The translations under genes and the position numbers were made by a program. From Betaproteobacteria bacterium (GTDB taxonomy: Bacteria > Pseudomonadota > Gammaproteobacteria > Burkholderiales > SG8-39): DNA of 5,348 nucleotides. Positions 684 to 5,056 of the stretch are shown one piece after another. Where the stretch lies: assembly GCA_029865405.1 (NCBI GenBank), contig JAOUGZ010000223.1:1-5348 (forward strand), read 5' to 3'. A model generated the notes under the pieces. It did not search any database. It saw nothing but the letters and a program-made list of their open reading frames with translations, and had not been told where the DNA came from. Every line of letters begins with the position of its first letter. Position 1 is the stretch's first letter.

Positions 684-690
684 GTTAGGC
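684..690 (+). other. attC R' core (3' remnant of an IS-split attC)
   Basis: GTTAGGC matches the GTTRRRY core of integron attC sites and lies 7 bases before the first cassette ORF, as cassette junctions do. The partner half-site is not adjacent: the sequence before it is the end of the IS110-family element. The original attC was therefore probably split by the insertion, with its 5' part before base 1. Confidence 0.6.
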
Positions 691-697
691 CTCGCGA

Positions 698-1099
698 ATG
701 GAGGACGCCGTGGACTTTCGACCTGGTTTTCGCCTTTCCGAGATCGATGTCGGAGTCTTGATGTCGGGTATTCTTGCCTCGGTCTTGCTAGCTCGCGTCG
801 ATAAGTCGTTCGCTCTCGCGCTCCTCTTCACACTCGCTCACTTCTTTCTGTTCTGCAATGTGCTGCGAATGAGTCGGCCACTCGAACTCCTATGGGCGGC
901 ACTCTTCGTCGTCCTTGCCGCGAGTACTATCCTCGTCGGTTTTCCGCCGTGGAGCTACACGCTCTCCGCCATGTTGGCCGTGACGGTCATCCTTGCAGTG
1001 GTTCAAGTGCTTCGGCCGTCGTACCACGGTGTGTTGTGGCAGCGAGTAAATCCGGACTTGCCGCAATGGTGGGACGCCAACAGAAAGAGCCGGACGTGA
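698..1099 (+). CDS. Integron cassette protein, predicted four-helix membrane protein
   Basis: A 133-aa protein of no recognised family. Four hydrophobic stretches are visible at about residues 18-35, 38-55, 62-80 and 88-105, so it is predicted to sit in the inner membrane with short loops; the tail (about 107-133) is polar and contains a WQRVNPDLPQWWD stretch. There is no signal peptide and no catalytic motif. It is the only gene of its cassette, starting 7 bases after the attC core GTTAGGC and ending 43 bases before the next attC. The start is uncertain: ATG at 698 has no good ribosome binding site, while an in-frame GTG at 710 (residue 5) has GGAGG at 700-704, ideally spaced. No promoter is evident; cassette genes usually rely on an upstream one, and the opposed IS upstream may have cut that off. 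Function unknown. Confidence 0.75.
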   Translation: MEDAVDFRPGFRLSEIDVGVLMSGILASVLLARVDKSFALALLFTLAHFFLFCNVLRMSRPLELLWAALFVVLAASTILVGFPPWSYTLSAMLAVTVILAVVQVLRPSYHGVLWQRVNPDLPQWWDANRKSRT

Positions 1100-1142
1100 A
1101 TACCAACCAGCCTTCTCGCGCTGGCACTCTGAATAGTGCGAG

Positions 1143-1214
1143 GCCTAACCTTTCGCTGCAGGCGACGCGCTGCGGCCTGCGGCCACCGCGCGCGGCTGAG
1201 CTTGCACGTTAGAC
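1143..1214 (+). other. attC recombination site
   Basis: The best attC in the window, 72 bases. R'' is GCCTAAC (1143-1149) and R' is GTTAGAC (1208-1214), both matching RYYYAAC/GTTRRRY and complementary in their AAC/GTT parts and most of the rest. The inner L-type pairing is TGCAGGC with GCTTGCA (one G-T pair), and the interior is GC-rich and dyad-like. It follows the first cassette gene and ends 12 bases before the next start codon, marking the cassette junction. Confidence 0.82.
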
Positions 1215-1226
1215 AGCAGCTACCCC

Positions 1227-1652
1227 ATGGCGCCTGGGCTCGAGATTCGCGTAGTGGATGTCGACGACGACTATCTGGGTATCAATATCGCCGCATCCAG
1301 CGACCGCTTCTCCGGGTCGGCTCGGATATTTGCTGGGCTTACGGAACTGAGTGCGTTTGCTAGTGCCATGACGGGTTTCCCGTCTAGCGCCAGTGACCGT
1401 AGGTCATACGAATTCGGTGCTCGCGGGAGTGGGTACGCCGGTGGCTTTGTGCAGCTAGCATTCCATTGCCAAGATGGGGCTGGGCATGCGGCGCTGACGA
1501 TAGCTATCGAGGATGATGCGCAAATGCGCTCCGAGGCTTCAGCCACTTTCTCGTTTTCGTTTGAGGCCGCAGAGCTGGATCGCTTTCTGACAAGTCTTCG
1601 GAAGCTTGAGCGCACCAAGGACGGCTATGCGACGTTGTCAGCTGCTGTCTAA
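1227..1652 (+). CDS. Integron cassette protein, soluble, function unknown
   Basis: A 141-aa protein with no membrane segment or signal peptide. It begins LEIRVVDVDDDYLGINIAAS, continues through an aromatic and Gly-rich middle (FGARGSGYAGGFVQLAFHC), and alternates hydrophobic and polar residues in a way that suggests a mostly beta fold followed by a C-terminal helix (FEAAELDRFLTSLRKLE). I recall similar small proteins in integron cassettes but cannot assign a named family or activity. It is the single gene of its cassette, 12 bases after one attC; its stop codon TAA overlaps the R'' core GTCTAAC of the next, a compact arrangement typical of cassettes. No clear ribosome binding site precedes the ATG at 1227. 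The opposite-strand ORF over this region is a shadow. Confidence 0.78.
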   Translation: MAPGLEIRVVDVDDDYLGINIAASSDRFSGSARIFAGLTELSAFASAMTGFPSSASDRRSYEFGARGSGYAGGFVQLAFHCQDGAGHAALTIAIEDDAQMRSEASATFSFSFEAAELDRFLTSLRKLERTKDGYATLSAAV

Positions 1653-1727
1653 CAGCGCGTTGTTGACCGACGCCTACACCTCGCCGCTTCGCGCTCAGCG
1701 CGGCGCGGCAAAACGCGGACGTTGATA
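1647..1727 (+). other. attC recombination site with a degenerate R' core
   Basis: R'' GTCTAAC (1647-1653) overlaps the stop of the preceding gene. The L pairing is CGCGTT (about 1656-1661) with AACGCG (about 1712-1717), followed by GTTGATA at 1721-1727, which keeps the GTT but departs from GTTRRRY at the last two positions. The interior (CGCTTCGCGCTCAGCGCGGCG) is GC-rich and self-complementary. Length 81 bases, within the usual attC range. Confidence 0.65.
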
Positions 1728-1857
1728 TGGCTAAACGCTGTCAAGAGGCGAGTGAAGTTCTCTGCATTTCCGGCAATGAATTCGATGTACATAACGCGCG
1801 ATGGGCAACGCGGCGGGGCCTGGTGACGACGGTCGATCACGCTGATATGCGCGCGTT
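1727..1857 (+). pseudogene. Short cassette ORF interrupted by the IS110-family element
   Basis: An ATG at 1727, overlapping the end of the attC-like site, opens a frame that runs into the IS and stops at 1907-1909 (60 codons as it stands). Joining base 1857 to 3255, which restores a plausible empty target site, gives a 47-codon reading frame ending in ALSHSV and a TAG at 3268-3270. The reconstructed peptide resembles nothing I recognise, and the frame passes through the attC-like dyad at 1789-1857, so it may not be a real gene. No clear ribosome binding site is visible. It could be a small cassette protein, the remnant of a larger one, or a non-coding cassette. Confidence 0.3.
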
Positions 1858-1861
1858 GGGT
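1789..1861 (+). other. attC-like site split by the second IS110-family element
   Basis: ACATAAC (1789-1795) followed by GCGCGAT pairs with ATGCGCGC before GTT (1847-1857), giving a stem of about 10 pairs with one extra base. The interior has a bulged hairpin, GTGACGA/TCGATCAC. The R' now reads GTTGGGT, but its last bases probably belong to the IS; joining 1857 to 3255 restores GTTAAGC and an attC-like site of 73 bases. The R'' deviates from RYYYAAC at one position. The repeated GCGTT on both sides of the IS (1853-1857 and 3250-3254) marks the insertion point. Confidence 0.5.
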
Positions 1862-2042
1862 AGCGCAAGACTGTGGTGCGTCACGGAGCTGCCTCGCTCT
1901 AGGGGCTGAGGTGCCGGCGGTGAGGCCGGATCAATAACGTTTCGACGAGGGTTCTCCAGCCGTGGCCGCGCCGCGTTGCCGATCGGGGCTAGGGTCAGGT
2001 GTGCGCTAAGGCCTCCTGGGTAGCTCGAGCGGTACTCGAGTC
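1858..2042 (-). ncRNA. Candidate bridge RNA (seekRNA) region of the IS110-family element
   Basis: Non-coding region downstream of the transposase stop, transcribed with it on the - strand. It opens with a hairpin CTCGAG-5 nt-CTCGAG (2040-2024) just after the stop codon. Two neighbouring segments could act as guides. TGGGTAGC at 2017-2024 is an exact copy of the element end at 1857-1864. GCGCTAAGG at 2003-2011 resembles the attC target GCGTTAAGC at 3250-3258. The RNA would pair with the element end over 9 positions and the target over 8, each with one G-U pair at the same core T. IS110-family recombinases are known to use such RNAs; this assignment is inferred from position and pairing only. 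Confidence 0.45.
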
Positions 2043-3146
2043 TCAGGCGGTCGGCTTCACCTGCCGCGCGATCGCCCAGACGAAGCCCGAGAGCTCGCGC
2101 GCAATCGCCACCACCACCTTGTTGCGTGGAAGGCGCCGCGCCGCCAGGCGCCTGAACCTCGCGCACAGGCGCAGCTGCGCCTTCCAGGCAAGATCGGTCA
2201 CGCCCTTGGCAAGCCCGGTATGCCGGCGCGCGATCACCCAGGACACGCGCGCCGGGTGCGCGTACGCCCAAGCCGCCTCGATGAACGCGCGCCGCGCCGA
2301 GGAGTTGCCCGCCTTGGTGATGCCGCCCTGACGGCGGCGCTTGCCCGAAGAATCTTCGCTTGGGGTGAGCCCCAGGTAGCCCATGAGCTTCCTCGGGGAT
2401 TCAAACCGCGACAGGTCCCCCAGCTCCGCCACGATCCTCACCCCATGGATCGCCGAGACCCCGCGCAGCGCCTGCAGCGCCTCGATCACCGGCCGCCAGC
2501 GCCAGTGCTCGAGCTGCGCCGCAATCGCCCCCTTCAGCCGCTCAAGACGCGCACCCGCCTCTTGCACCGCCTGCACGTACTCCTCGAACGCAATCTGCTG
2601 CGCCGGATCGGGCAGCTTCAGGTGCGCGATCCAGCGCCGGTGCGCCTGCGTCCAGGCACTCCTTCCTACGTAGCGGATCTCGTTCCTCAGCAGCAGTGCC
2701 TGCAACCGCTGCCGCGCCTGGCGCTGCATGCACACCGCATCCTCCCGGGTCCGCACCAGGTCGCGCACCGCCTCATCGTGCGCGTCGGGCACGTAGATCG
2801 GCGCCAGCTCCCCGGCCCGCGCAAGGCGCGCCAGCATCAGCGCGTCCCTCCTGTCGGTCTTGACCCGATCCCCGCTTCGCCGCGGCGTCATCGAGGGCGA
2901 GACCACCATGCACCTCAAGCCCTGCGCCCGCAGCCTTCGGTACAACCAGAACCCGCAGGGCCCTGCCTCGTACACAAACAGCGGATTCCGATGCGCCGCG
3001 CGGATCCTCCTCACCGCCCGATCCACCGCCGCCGCCTCTCCACCCACACGCCCGAACAGCCGCGCTTCTCTCCCATCCGCAATCGCGATATCCACCGACT
3101 CCTTGTGCATGTCCAACCCCACAACCGCGGTGCTATCCTTTCCCAT
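2043..3146 (-). CDS. IS110-family transposase (RNA-guided DEDD/serine recombinase), full length
   Basis: A 367-aa protein, within the usual size of IS110-family transposases, with both expected domains. The N-terminal RuvC-like DEDD domain shows D12 in VVGLDMHK, E60 in FVYEAG, and D98 and D101 in KTDRRDA. A coiled, charged middle (about 110-215) is followed by a C-terminal Transposase_20 domain (about 225-295) with LRGVSAIHGVRIVAEL, FESPRKLMGYLGLTPSE and GGITKAGNSSARRAFIEAAW; the catalytic serine is expected at S282 or S283. All key residues are present and no frameshift is seen. It is not closely similar to the other transposase at 1-579. The start is supported by GGAGG 6 bases upstream of ATG, but that site lies in the inner arm of an inverted repeat. 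The gene opposes the cassettes. The long + strand frames over it are shadows caused by high GC. Confidence 0.95.
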   Translation of the reverse strand: MGKDSTAVVGLDMHKESVDIAIADGREARLFGRVGGEAAAVDRAVRRIRAAHRNPLFVYEAGPCGFWLYRRLRAQGLRCMVVSPSMTPRRSGDRVKTDRRDALMLARLARAGELAPIYVPDAHDEAVRDLVRTREDAVCMQRQARQRLQALLLRNEIRYVGRSAWTQAHRRWIAHLKLPDPAQQIAFEEYVQAVQEAGARLERLKGAIAAQLEHWRWRPVIEALQALRGVSAIHGVRIVAELGDLSRFESPRKLMGYLGLTPSEDSSGKRRRQGGITKAGNSSARRAFIEAAWAYAHPARVSWVIARRHTGLAKGVTDLAWKAQLRLCARFRRLAARRLPRNKVVVAIARELSGFVWAIARQVKPTA

Positions 3147-3241
3147 GGCCTGCCTCCTCGATTGGTTGTTGATGCCTTCGTGCTCAACAGGTGGCTCTAC
3201 GTGCCCTAAGCACGCAACCCACGATACGCCGGAGGCAGGCC
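3147..3241 (-). repeat. Inverted repeat flanking the leader of the second IS110-family transposase
   Basis: The inner arm GGCCTGCCTCC (3147-3157) abuts the start codon and the outer arm GGAGGCAGGCC (3231-3241) is its perfect reverse complement, 11 pairs. On the coding strand the inner arm supplies the GGAGG ribosome binding site. The loop contains GTGC/GCAC and GTTGA/TCAAC hairpins. The layout equals that of the first element (580-673): same abutment to ATG, same burial of the ribosome binding site, and the outer arm ending 10 nt from the attC GTT, though the arm sequences differ. Confidence 0.75.
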
Positions 3242-3251
3242 GCCTCTTCGC

Positions 3252-3258
3252 GTTAAGC
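3252..3258 (+). other. attC R' core on the far side of the IS110-family element
   Basis: GTTAAGC matches GTTRRRY and starts 10 nt after the outer inverted-repeat arm, as GTTAGGC does in the first element. It is the likely 3' end of the attC whose 5' part is at 1789-1857. A competing junction motif, GTTTAGGC at 3265-3272, lies closer to the next start codon and recurs at 5137-5144, so which marks the cassette edge is not certain. Confidence 0.5.
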
Positions 3259-3278
3259 CATTCTGTTTAGGCGTTTCG

Positions 3279-3665
3279 ATGCGCCACACCGAATCGAAGG
3301 CTAACAAGGTGTTTGAGAACGTCGCCGCTCTCGGCATCGGAGTTCCGGTCGTCGGTCTGCTCATGGGCGGCATCTACTCAATGCCCGCGATGCACGTCTG
3401 CAAAGGCCGCGAGCCCTGGCTCAGCGTGTCATTGAGCATCGGCCTAGCGATCACCGTCTTTGGCCTTGGCTACCTTACCGACACCCCCATTCTCTTTTCT
3501 GTCGGAGCGTGGGGTTTCTCCGTCATCCTGCTGCTTGTCGCTCGACGTCTCTACGGCACTCTCGACGGCAACCTCGAACGCTTCGGGCTTGTTCACGCCG
3601 CTGCGCTGCTGATCGCATTCGTCCTCGCCCTCCTCACCGCACATGGGATATCAAGAAACGCCTAA
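3279..3665 (+). CDS. Integron cassette protein, predicted four-helix membrane protein
   Basis: A 128-aa protein of no recognised family. Hydrophobic segments are visible at about residues 14-36, 47-66, 69-90 and 103-121, predicting four inner-membrane helices; a polar loop with MHVCKGREPW separates the first two. The N-terminus (MRHTESKANKVFENV) is polar and not a signal peptide. It shares architecture but no obvious sequence with the membrane protein at 698-1099. Only a weak AGG (3269-3271) precedes the ATG. The stop TAA overlaps the R'' core GCCTAAC of the next attC-like site, strongly suggesting a cassette gene. With an opposed IS immediately upstream, any promoter further back in the array would be separated from it by about 1.4 kb. 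Function unknown. Confidence 0.78.
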   Translation: MRHTESKANKVFENVAALGIGVPVVGLLMGGIYSMPAMHVCKGREPWLSVSLSIGLAITVFGLGYLTDTPILFSVGAWGFSVILLLVARRLYGTLDGNLERFGLVHAAALLIAFVLALLTAHGISRNA

Positions 3666-3767
3666 CCCCCCGGTCAACGCGGACGCGCGCGACGTGCCGG
3701 CGCATGCTGTCGCCCCCGCTGCGCGCGCCGGTTACCGGGCACGTTCGGCAGACCAGCGCCGTTATGG
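3660..3767 (+). other. attC-like recombination site, long form
   Basis: R'' GCCTAAC (3660-3666) overlaps the stop of the preceding gene. The site ends at GTTATGG (3761-3767), keeping GTT but not the full GTTRRRY. Inner pairing is GGTC (3672-3675) with GACC (3751-3754), then ACGTGCC with GGGCACGT further in, and the interior is rich in GCGCGC. At 108 bases it is long but within known attC sizes. It lies 9 bases before the next start codon. Confidence 0.6.
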
Positions 3768-3776
3768 TGGACATCA

Positions 3777-4067
3777 ATGAGGTATTTGACTGTGGATGGC
3801 ATGTTCGCTGGCACGGGAATCCGGGACTCTATCGAGGGAGGCTATTTGTCGCCCTCGGATCTCGGCCTTTCATCGAACCTCTCGTCACGTCTGGCGGCGT
3901 GGGTCCGCGAGTACGCGGCGGCGCACTATGCTGGATACAATGACGCCGACCAAGTCGCGCGCCTTGACCTAGAGGGTGAAAAGATCTGCGCGGCGGTGCG
4001 GGAGGAGCTGCCCTACGCCAAGGTCGAGTACTATTCGGATGCCTTGATGAAGCGATCCCTCGCGTGA
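3777..4067 (+). CDS. Small cassette protein of unknown function
   Basis: A 96-aa, probably cytosolic protein with no membrane segment, signal peptide or recognised catalytic motif. It starts MRYLTVDGMFAGTGIRDSIEGGYL, then SPSDLGLSSNLSSRLAAWVREYAAAHYAGY, and ends in an acidic helix and KVEYYSDALMKRSLA, looking like a small alpha/beta fold. It begins 9 bases after an attC-like site, the position expected of a cassette gene. The start is preceded only by a weak GGTGG (3766-3770). An overlapping + strand frame (3509-3943) reads through the attC and is judged a shadow. The protein composition (balanced acidic and aromatic residues, few Arg/Pro runs) supports real coding. I do not recognise a family with confidence. 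Confidence 0.68.
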   Translation: MRYLTVDGMFAGTGIRDSIEGGYLSPSDLGLSSNLSSRLAAWVREYAAAHYAGYNDADQVARLDLEGEKICAAVREELPYAKVEYYSDALMKRSLA

Positions 4068-4083
4068 CCGAACCGTGGTCGCT

Positions 4084-4128: not shown

Positions 4129-4163
4129 GTTGACACCTCGGGCTAACAGCTCGGAGGTGTGTT

Positions 4164-4316
4164 GTGGCAAAAGCTGGACCGCGAAAGATTGCGAAATACG
4201 GAGAGCGATTCAAGGCGACTGCGGTGAAGTTGAGCGGCCTGCCCGGTGTGCTGATTCGGGATGTGGCGGCGGCGCTGGACGTTCATCCGTTCATGCTGTC
4301 GTTGTGGAGGAAACAG
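4164..4316 (+). pseudogene. IS3-family orfA, 5' fragment (helix-turn-helix part)
   Basis: GTG start at 4164 with GGAGG at 4153-4157. The first 51 residues (MAKAGPRKIAKYGERFKATA, LPGVLIRDVAAALDVHPFML, SLWRKQ) match the N-terminal helix-turn-helix part of IS3-family OrfA, which binds the element ends. After Q51 (4314-4316) the frame continues to 4463, but the residues no longer look like OrfA; from there the DNA encodes OrfB in the frame at -1. The OrfA leucine-zipper part and the usual orfA-orfB slippery region are missing. The boundary is set by where similarity to the family, as I recall it, stops. Confidence 0.8.
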
Positions 4317-4318
4317 GC

Positions 4319-5056
4319 GAGCGTGAGCGCCAGAACGAGGCGCTCGCGGATCAGATTCGAGCAGTTCACCTCGAAAGCCGTGGGACCTACGGCAGTCCCC
4401 GTGTGCACCAGACGCTCCGGCGCAAGGGCCATTGCGTGGGTAAGCATCGGGTGGCGCGCCTGATGCGCGCGCACGGGATCAAGGCACGGGTGGCCACTAT
4501 CCGCTACACAAATCCCAGCCTGCAGCGCTACTACGGCAGCATCCCCAACCAGCAGCTCGATCTCGAGCTGAAGACTCCCGACCAGGTCTGGGTGGGCGAC
4601 ATCACGTATTTGAAGGTGGCTGGGATCTACCGTTACCTCGCGGTGGTGATGGACAAGTACAGCCGCCGCGTTGTGGGCTGGAGCTACGGGCCCAGGAAAG
4701 ACGTGAAGCTCACCCTCGCAGCGCTCAACCACGCCGTGGGTAGCCGCCGGCCGGCTTCAGGAGTCGTGTTCCACACCGATCGGGGCATCGAGTACGCCGC
4801 AGGCGCTTTCAAGGACCGAATCGCTGAGCTAGGCTTCACTCAGAGCATGAACCGCCCCGGCAAGGTCACCGACAATGCCTTCATCGAGTCCTTCTTCCAT
4901 TCGATGAAATCGGAAGTGTTCCATGGCTACCGCTTCAACGATGACAGAGAAGTCCGCGCTGTGCTGCAAAGCTATTTGCCCTTTTACAACCGCGATAGAC
5001 TTCACTCGTCTTTGGACTACGTGTCGCCTGCGACGTTTGAACGGCAGGCTCGATGA
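4319..5056 (+). pseudogene. IS3-family orfB (DDE transposase), 5'-truncated
   Basis: An open frame of 245 residues ending at the TGA 5054-5056. It begins inside OrfB (ERERQNEALADQIRAVHLES) and includes RGTYGSPRVHQTLRRKG, typical of the region before the catalytic core. The rve/DDE domain is complete: D in VWVGDITYLKV, D in VVFHTDRGIEYAA, and E in DNAFIESFFHSMKSE, with 35 residues between the second D and the E; NRDRLHSSLDYVSPATFE follows near the end. Full OrfB proteins have roughly 45 more N-terminal residues. No own start codon with a ribosome binding site is visible; the frame extends upstream to 4130, but those residues are the out-of-frame reading of orfA. Likely inactive because the OrfAB fusion cannot be made. 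Confidence 0.85.

Follow-up and report, generated by a model that had tools for sequence, protein, structure and literature searches.

An insertion sequence within an integron attC site

The window, by which we mean the whole stretch of 5,348 nucleotides analysed here, carries a complete insertion sequence of 1545 bp on the minus strand (1724-3268). Its boundaries are the positions at which homology stops in relatives found in other contexts: it runs past 1857 and 3250, upstream to (A)GACAGAATGG and downstream to GCCATATC, before the sequences diverge. Near-identical copies within the same genome (L027/L049 and L028/L050) share these ends in different surroundings. A scan for inverted repeats with IS1111 extensions, in which the extension lengths were preset at 7 bp and 3 bp, returns 3268 and 1724, in agreement with the divergence points of the relatives. 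The subterminal inverted repeats occupy 3250-3261 on the left (ATGGCTTAACGC, minus strand) and 1727-1738 on the right (GCGTTTAGCCAT, minus strand); compared as ATGGCTTAACGC / ATGGCTAAACGC they match at 11 of 12 positions, as is expected of the perfect or nearly perfect repeats of 11-13 bp in IS1111 elements. Outside them lie the extensions AAACAGA (7 bp, 3262-3268, minus strand) and ATC (3 bp, 1724-1726, minus strand), the left and right lengths described for IS1111 (PMC11187229).

The insertion point is GTT|AGGC (1723|3269) in the R' core of an attC site; insertion into an attC core is characteristic of the IS1111-attC group. The left part of the interrupted site, from R'' GTCTAAC to the R' GTT, lies at 1647-1723 on the plus strand, and the remainder of R' (AGGC) at 3269-3272 on the same strand. 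Rejoined, these flanks restore an empty attC, 81 nt long, whose R'' reads GTCTAAC and whose R' reads GTTAGGC; its bottom strand folds into a single hairpin of -38.5 kcal/mol (computed with RNA parameters). Insertion sequences of the IS1111-attC group have reportedly been found in attC R' sites of integrons, as here, by Tetu and Holmes in 2008 and by Post and Hall in 2009. Among 47 elements (L047, L048, L056 and L061 excluded), the right flank begins with AACG in 24, and a GTTRRNN motif follows 40-160 nt on in 20 of these 24 vs 8 of the 23 others. In L065 the right flank (AGAATCCTTGTTTGGGTTAT) is identical to a part of the target stem and guide in that element's seekRNA, as would be seen if one copy lay in or beside another.

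The surroundings hold other mobile DNA. Positions 684-4080 form an integron cassette array, with four cassette-like reading frames at 698-1099, 1227-1652, 3279-3665 and 3777-4067 that lack a Pfam match. A second, partial IS1111-like element occupies position 1 to about 683 (minus strand; PF01548, 59% to IS5708-named proteins) and seems to have one end at the corresponding GTT|AGGC of another attC, the other end lying beyond the window. IS3-type transposase frames are found at 4130-5056, with HTH_Tnp_1 at 4164-4463 and HTH_21 and rve within 4130-5056.

The transposase gene of the complete element (2043-3146, minus strand) encodes a DEDD-type protein of 367 aa with both PF01548 and PF02371, the domain pair of the IS1111 family, and the C-terminal stretch GLTPSEDSSG agrees with the IS1111 motif GL-P----S(t)G. 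As in other IS1111 elements, the longer non-coding region lies downstream of the gene (319 nt, 1724-2042, vs 122 nt upstream). IS1111 transposases usually measure 330-350 aa, a descriptive range and not the defining criterion (PMC11187229); since the protein exceeds this range, we word the assignment as IS1111-type. The family is common, with 7,964 of 8,000 scored candidates at E <=1e-60, and the closest named transposases among those seen (PLSDB annotation) are ISSfr2 (51.8% identity), ISSso6 (48.6%) and ISEc45 (45.2%). Against the IS5708-like transposase L084, the C-terminal stretch alone aligns (25/79). Scans of viral contigs confirmed no relative, and phage records gave a lone match with 71% identity over 11% of the query. 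Judged by its sequence, the element is an attC-targeting, RNA-guided IS1111-type insertion sequence, a kind that is already known.

Relatives were drawn from 25 of 394, 11 of 369 and 4 of 337 genomes and from 12 plasmid loci; genome contigs, when scanned, yielded 14 loci that hold relatives. Where the transposase match was incomplete or the upstream sequence too short, the locus had been excluded earlier. The 51 elements kept are those that remained after removal of duplicates (L015, L016, L017, L018, L021 and L053), of loci with weak ends (L008, L023, L025, L031, L063, L071 and L079) and of two with no ends (L036 and L064).

Joining of the ends in a circle would also create a promoter. Its predicted -35 box, TTGACA, lies at 1739-1744 and its -10 box, CAGAAT, at 3260-3265, both on the minus strand and 18 nt apart in the joined circle. 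TTGACA with CANNAT at left-end positions 4-9, at a spacing of 17 or 18, is present in 34 of 47 joined-end elements (L047, L048, L056 and L061 omitted), and the TTGACA-N18-CAGAAT of the window fits the family junction promoter as described in PMC11187229.

Predicted guide segments in the 3' non-coding region

The 3' non-coding region is predicted to encode an RNA of the seekRNA/bridge type at about 1821-1973 on the minus strand (covariance model R2, 115.1 bits). The outer limits were set during alignment, and with them the modelled RNA measures 153 nt, near the range given for long seekRNAs (145-170 nt; PMC11187229). In an alignment of 26 sequences its 11 pairs are formed in 96.9% of cells, 4 of the 11 are changed on both sides, and the covariation score is reached by 0 of 500 shuffles; further pair types are no more frequent than in shuffles (388 of 500 reach the value), and the folding energy is no better than that of shuffles (z 0.31). 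Model R2, whose training set included the window and L001, matches 25 of the 27 loci searched at E <=0.0015, these two among them; L034 and L084 are without a match. In most relatives the core leads from GGAGAACCCUCG, or a variant of it, through a variable stretch and a hairpin to a stretch ending in CUAGA, after which come GAGGCAGCUCC and a second loop that ends near ACCGUCG. The conserved 5' anchor and stem strand of the window, GGAGAACCCTCG (1946-1957, minus strand), pairs with CGAGGCAGCTCC at 1885-1896.

The position of the target guide is defined by the relatives. An octamer at most 14 nt after the CCUCG anchor reverse-complements the last base of the left flank and the first seven of the right flank; 33 of the 47 elements reach a match of at least 7/8. 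When each distinct guide/target combination is counted once (n=31), the mean match is 6.37/8 vs 4.56 when permuted, and with one element per distinct guide region (n=25) it is 6.24 vs 4.44; 0 of 10,000 permutations reach the observed value in either case, fractions that are not probabilities because the permutations leave relatedness in place. The 47 elements lack L040, L043, L075 and L077, which have no anchor, and doubtful rows were retained, which lowers the observed mean.

Fourteen of the 47 fall below 7/8. Among the low scorers, L039, L047, L048, L054, L056, L060 and L061 have doubtful ends or anchors, while the window, L001 and L070 are free of such doubt. In the window the guide AAACGUUA (1942-1935, minus strand) agrees at 6/8 with T|AACGTCC, that is, the T of the left flank and AACGTCC of the right flank. 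The octamer at 1799-1792 of the same 3' region scores slightly higher (6.5), so that the guide of the window is identified by its location, which the relatives fix, and would not stand out in the window taken alone.

Two further segments match the left flank and the element's own ends. The second guide, CCCCUAGAG (1905-1897, minus strand), has the same sense as the left flank and left end; over 40 combinations its mean match is 6.35 vs 5.92 permuted (reached by 4 of 10,000 permutations, or by 294 of 10,000 for the left flank alone; L047, L048, L056, L061, L039, L075, L076 and L077 omitted). The 3' region thereby matches both target strands, with the top-strand match first, as expected of a seekRNA, the top strand being that of the transposase orientation; taken without the left end, the second match is weak. 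The third segment, CAUAUCAG (1849-1842, minus strand), matches the junction formed by the right and left ends, with a mean of 6.83 vs 6.06 over 35 combinations and 0 of 5,000 permutations reaching it; this test omitted L047, L048, L056, L061 and L057, and the region is mislocated in L082. Such a match to the joined ends is probably that of a right donor guide. For the second and third segments, too, the permutations leave relatedness in place, and the fractions are not probabilities.

We consider it very probable that the element at 1724-3268 is an IS1111-type insertion sequence in an attC R' core, the 3' region of which encodes a seekRNA/bridge-type RNA with guides at 1942-1935, 1905-1897 and, probably, 1849-1842. 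In this reading the element, whose transposase gene is on the minus strand, has inserted between GTT and AGGC of R', and its 319-nt 3' non-coding region encodes the RNA at about 1973-1821. Guide 1942-1935 would read the right half of the target in the transposase orientation, guide 1905-1897 the last bases of the left flank together with the first of the element, and the loop 1849-1842 probably the joined ends; the RNA would then bind the transposase and direct the circular intermediate to the target. The ends, the empty site, the conserved RNA structure and the guide-target matching across relatives are established by sequence comparison. From published experiments on other members of the family, as described in PMC11187229, we infer that the RNA is made and bound by the transposase, and that it guides a circular intermediate to its target.

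Three other explanations have been weighed against this reading. A protein might recognise the folded attC strand and choose the target in that way, the guide-like matches being by-products of shared ancestry. The attC does fold into a hairpin and the permutations do keep relatedness; we nevertheless regard this as very improbable. The targets differ among relatives, one being AACGCC (Shewanella group). Others are AACAGT (L055), AGCCCGT (L057), AGGAACC (L076) and AGAAATG (L081), and in these relatives with unrelated targets the guide has changed correspondingly at the same place. In addition, the 3' RNA is described as bound to the transposase in ISKpn4 and ISPst6 and as needed for the movement of ISEc11 (PMC11187229). 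Alternatively, the 5' leader (3147-3241) could be the guide RNA, as in IS110-type elements with an upstream non-coding RNA. It is conserved, structured and of about the right size, but the target-matching sequence of the relatives sits at a fixed position of the 3' region, and the leader motif CGNGG(G/A)UU hardly varies from one target to the next, so that, judged by this motif, a guiding role for the leader is equally hard to credit.

The weakest explanation, to which we attach hardly any weight, is that of the sequence-only reading, which drew the element at about 1857-3250 and placed its guides at 2017-2024 (for the element end) and 2003-2011 (for the attC target), on the strength of an exact 8-base repeat and of paired runs of 9 and 8 positions. 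The letters are indeed there, TGGGTAGC at 1857-1864 and again at 2017-2024, GCGCTAAGG at 2003-2011 and GCGTTAAGC at 3250-3258, and the paired runs are real if G-U is included, but they are at chance level: in 500 dinucleotide shuffles of 1870-2042, with no closeness required between the two segments, a run of at least 9 against the first site occurs in 210, one of at least 8 against the second in 135, and both in 71. Conserved sequence continues past 1857 and 3250, which already contradicts this reading: both proposed ends, and the target too, fall within the element. At 1857-1864, TGGGTAGC is part of the 3' non-coding region, where it sits in a hairpin loop predicted for the seekRNA-type RNA, and since the element ends at 3268 and 1724, the supposed attC target GCGTTAAGC belongs to the element itself, as its left subterminal inverted repeat.

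Comparison with L001, whose transposase is 92% identical, points the same way. The donor segment GCTACCCAG is lost there, and the target segment CTTAGCGC is retained although the repeat that it would read has changed from TTAACGC to TTGATGC; identity between the window and L001 falls to 31/43 at 2003-2045 vs 144/154 at 1821-1974. With the L001 changes, this drop and the shuffles, the two segments at 2003-2024 (minus strand) are rejected as guides on present evidence, and the region to which the guide RNA had been assigned folds no better than shuffles (z -0.02). What stands of that reading is the kind of RNA, a predicted seekRNA/bridge-type guide that follows the transposase gene on its 3' side and is encoded on the minus strand, together with the insertion in the GTT of the R' core. 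Its placement at 1858-2042 and the target sequence named at 3250-3258 do not hold: the guide RNA was misplaced because the element ends had been drawn too short, and by comparison with the relatives the guides lie at 1935-1942 and 1897-1905, some 60-130 nt nearer the 3' end. Guides placed elsewhere by a model are what the sequence-only reading had itself named as refuting it, although here they lie in the 3' region and not in the upstream leader.

A structured leader upstream of the transposase

Between the left end and the transposase gene lies a putative second RNA, the 5' leader (3147-3241, minus strand). It folds with the Shine-Dalgarno sequence inside a closing stem (3231-3241 / 3147-3157) that encloses two hairpins and ends at the ATG start codon (z -4.59; 0 of 200 shuffles). 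Across 24 relatives, 15 pairs are formed in 93.3% of cells and 10 pairs are changed on both sides, a count reached by 8 of 500 shuffles; the covariation score is reached by 0 of 500 and is lost when the registers are shifted by 1-3 columns, and further pair types are no more frequent than in shuffles (433 of 500). Nine of ten leaders fold with z <=-2.57, the exception being L075 (z -0.86). In this clade the enclosed hairpins carry the conserved motif CGNGG(G/A)UU...AGAGCC. The partial element at 1 to about 683 has a leader of its own, with the Shine-Dalgarno sequence in the closing stem (z -6.05); in its Polaromonas relative (L084) the leader is not clear (z -0.30).

A covariance model of the leader matches 30 of 197 genomes at E <=0.01. 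In 14 of the 20 loci fetched, a transposase match begins at residue 1 directly behind the leader, the other six being L102 (fragments), L096 and L100 (at a contig end), L101 and L104 (start codon and shortened frame) and L103. L085, L101 and L104 consist of the left end, the leader and the first part only of the transposase frame. An Rfam scan of the window up to E 1 gave one match alone, mir-3957 at E 0.19, which we take as chance, and a literature search at listing level, with subscription papers mostly outside its coverage, found no paper naming such a leader.

The leader octamer CGNGG(G/A)UU (3216-3223, minus strand) is largely complementary to an octamer of the donor-side hairpin of the seekRNA (1850-1857, minus strand) in most of 20 combinations, without covariation. 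The mean for this pairing is 6.6/8 over the 20 combinations and is reached by 17.5% of permutations, and such a pairing is not claimed here.

In the wider family, 60 loci yielded 11 usable frames, or 31 after a looser start rule, from which 27 distinct upstream regions entered the scoring. Of these 27, 9 have a stem close to the start codon at p <=0.05. Two of the nine (L122 and L123) belong to this clade; in L134 the stem lies 11 nt from the start codon; and in L162, L142 and L112 it overlaps a 10-nt inverted repeat that the downstream side also has. In these last three elements, the repeat also appears to supply the strand opposite the Shine-Dalgarno region. We speculate, at about even odds, that IS1111-type elements carry a second RNA, a leader that buries the ribosome binding site and acts as a translational gate opened by a signal, with motif-bearing hairpins in this clade and with the left repeat covering the Shine-Dalgarno sequence in L162, L142 and L112. 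If the leader gates translation, this would add a layer of control to RNA-guided transposition, and if the left inverted repeat covers the Shine-Dalgarno sequence, the identity of the DNA end would be tied to translation. The leader is the more novel part of the element in comparison with the guide RNA.

Relation to known seekRNA and bridge RNA systems

Targeting of attC by the IS1111-attC group has been called well documented (PMC11616780), and in the description of PMC11187229 seekRNAs are shown for the attC-targeting ISKpn4 and ISPst6, along with the natural redirections ISEc11/ISXne4 and ISEc21/ISMch6. The present analysis corrects the guide location for this element and adds a natural series in which guides have changed along with targets. 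Such a series tests the seekRNA model more broadly than do the two redirections presented in PMC11187229. This series extends to the locus named ISSfr2 (L074), with the right flank AGTGGA and a guide correspondingly different from that of the window.

By description, the element resembles ISKpn4, ISPst6 and ISPa25 (PMC11187229) in its attC target, its 3' non-coding region, its 7-bp and 3-bp extensions with subterminal repeats, and a target match that lies 5' of the match to the other strand. It is unlike them, as far as they are described there, in its transposase of 367 aa; for ISKpn4 and ISPst6, binding of the RNA to the transposase has been shown (PMC11187229). According to PMC11208160, bridge RNAs are predicted in 93.0% of IS1111 elements, at the right end. 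The predicted RNA of the window shares this right-end location, and like the bridge RNAs of IS621 and of IS110/IS1111 elements as presented there, it would hold target-reading and donor-reading segments. IS621 belongs to the IS110 group and carries its RNA in the left end (PMC11208160), unlike the element described here, in which the donor guide is represented by the right candidate only.
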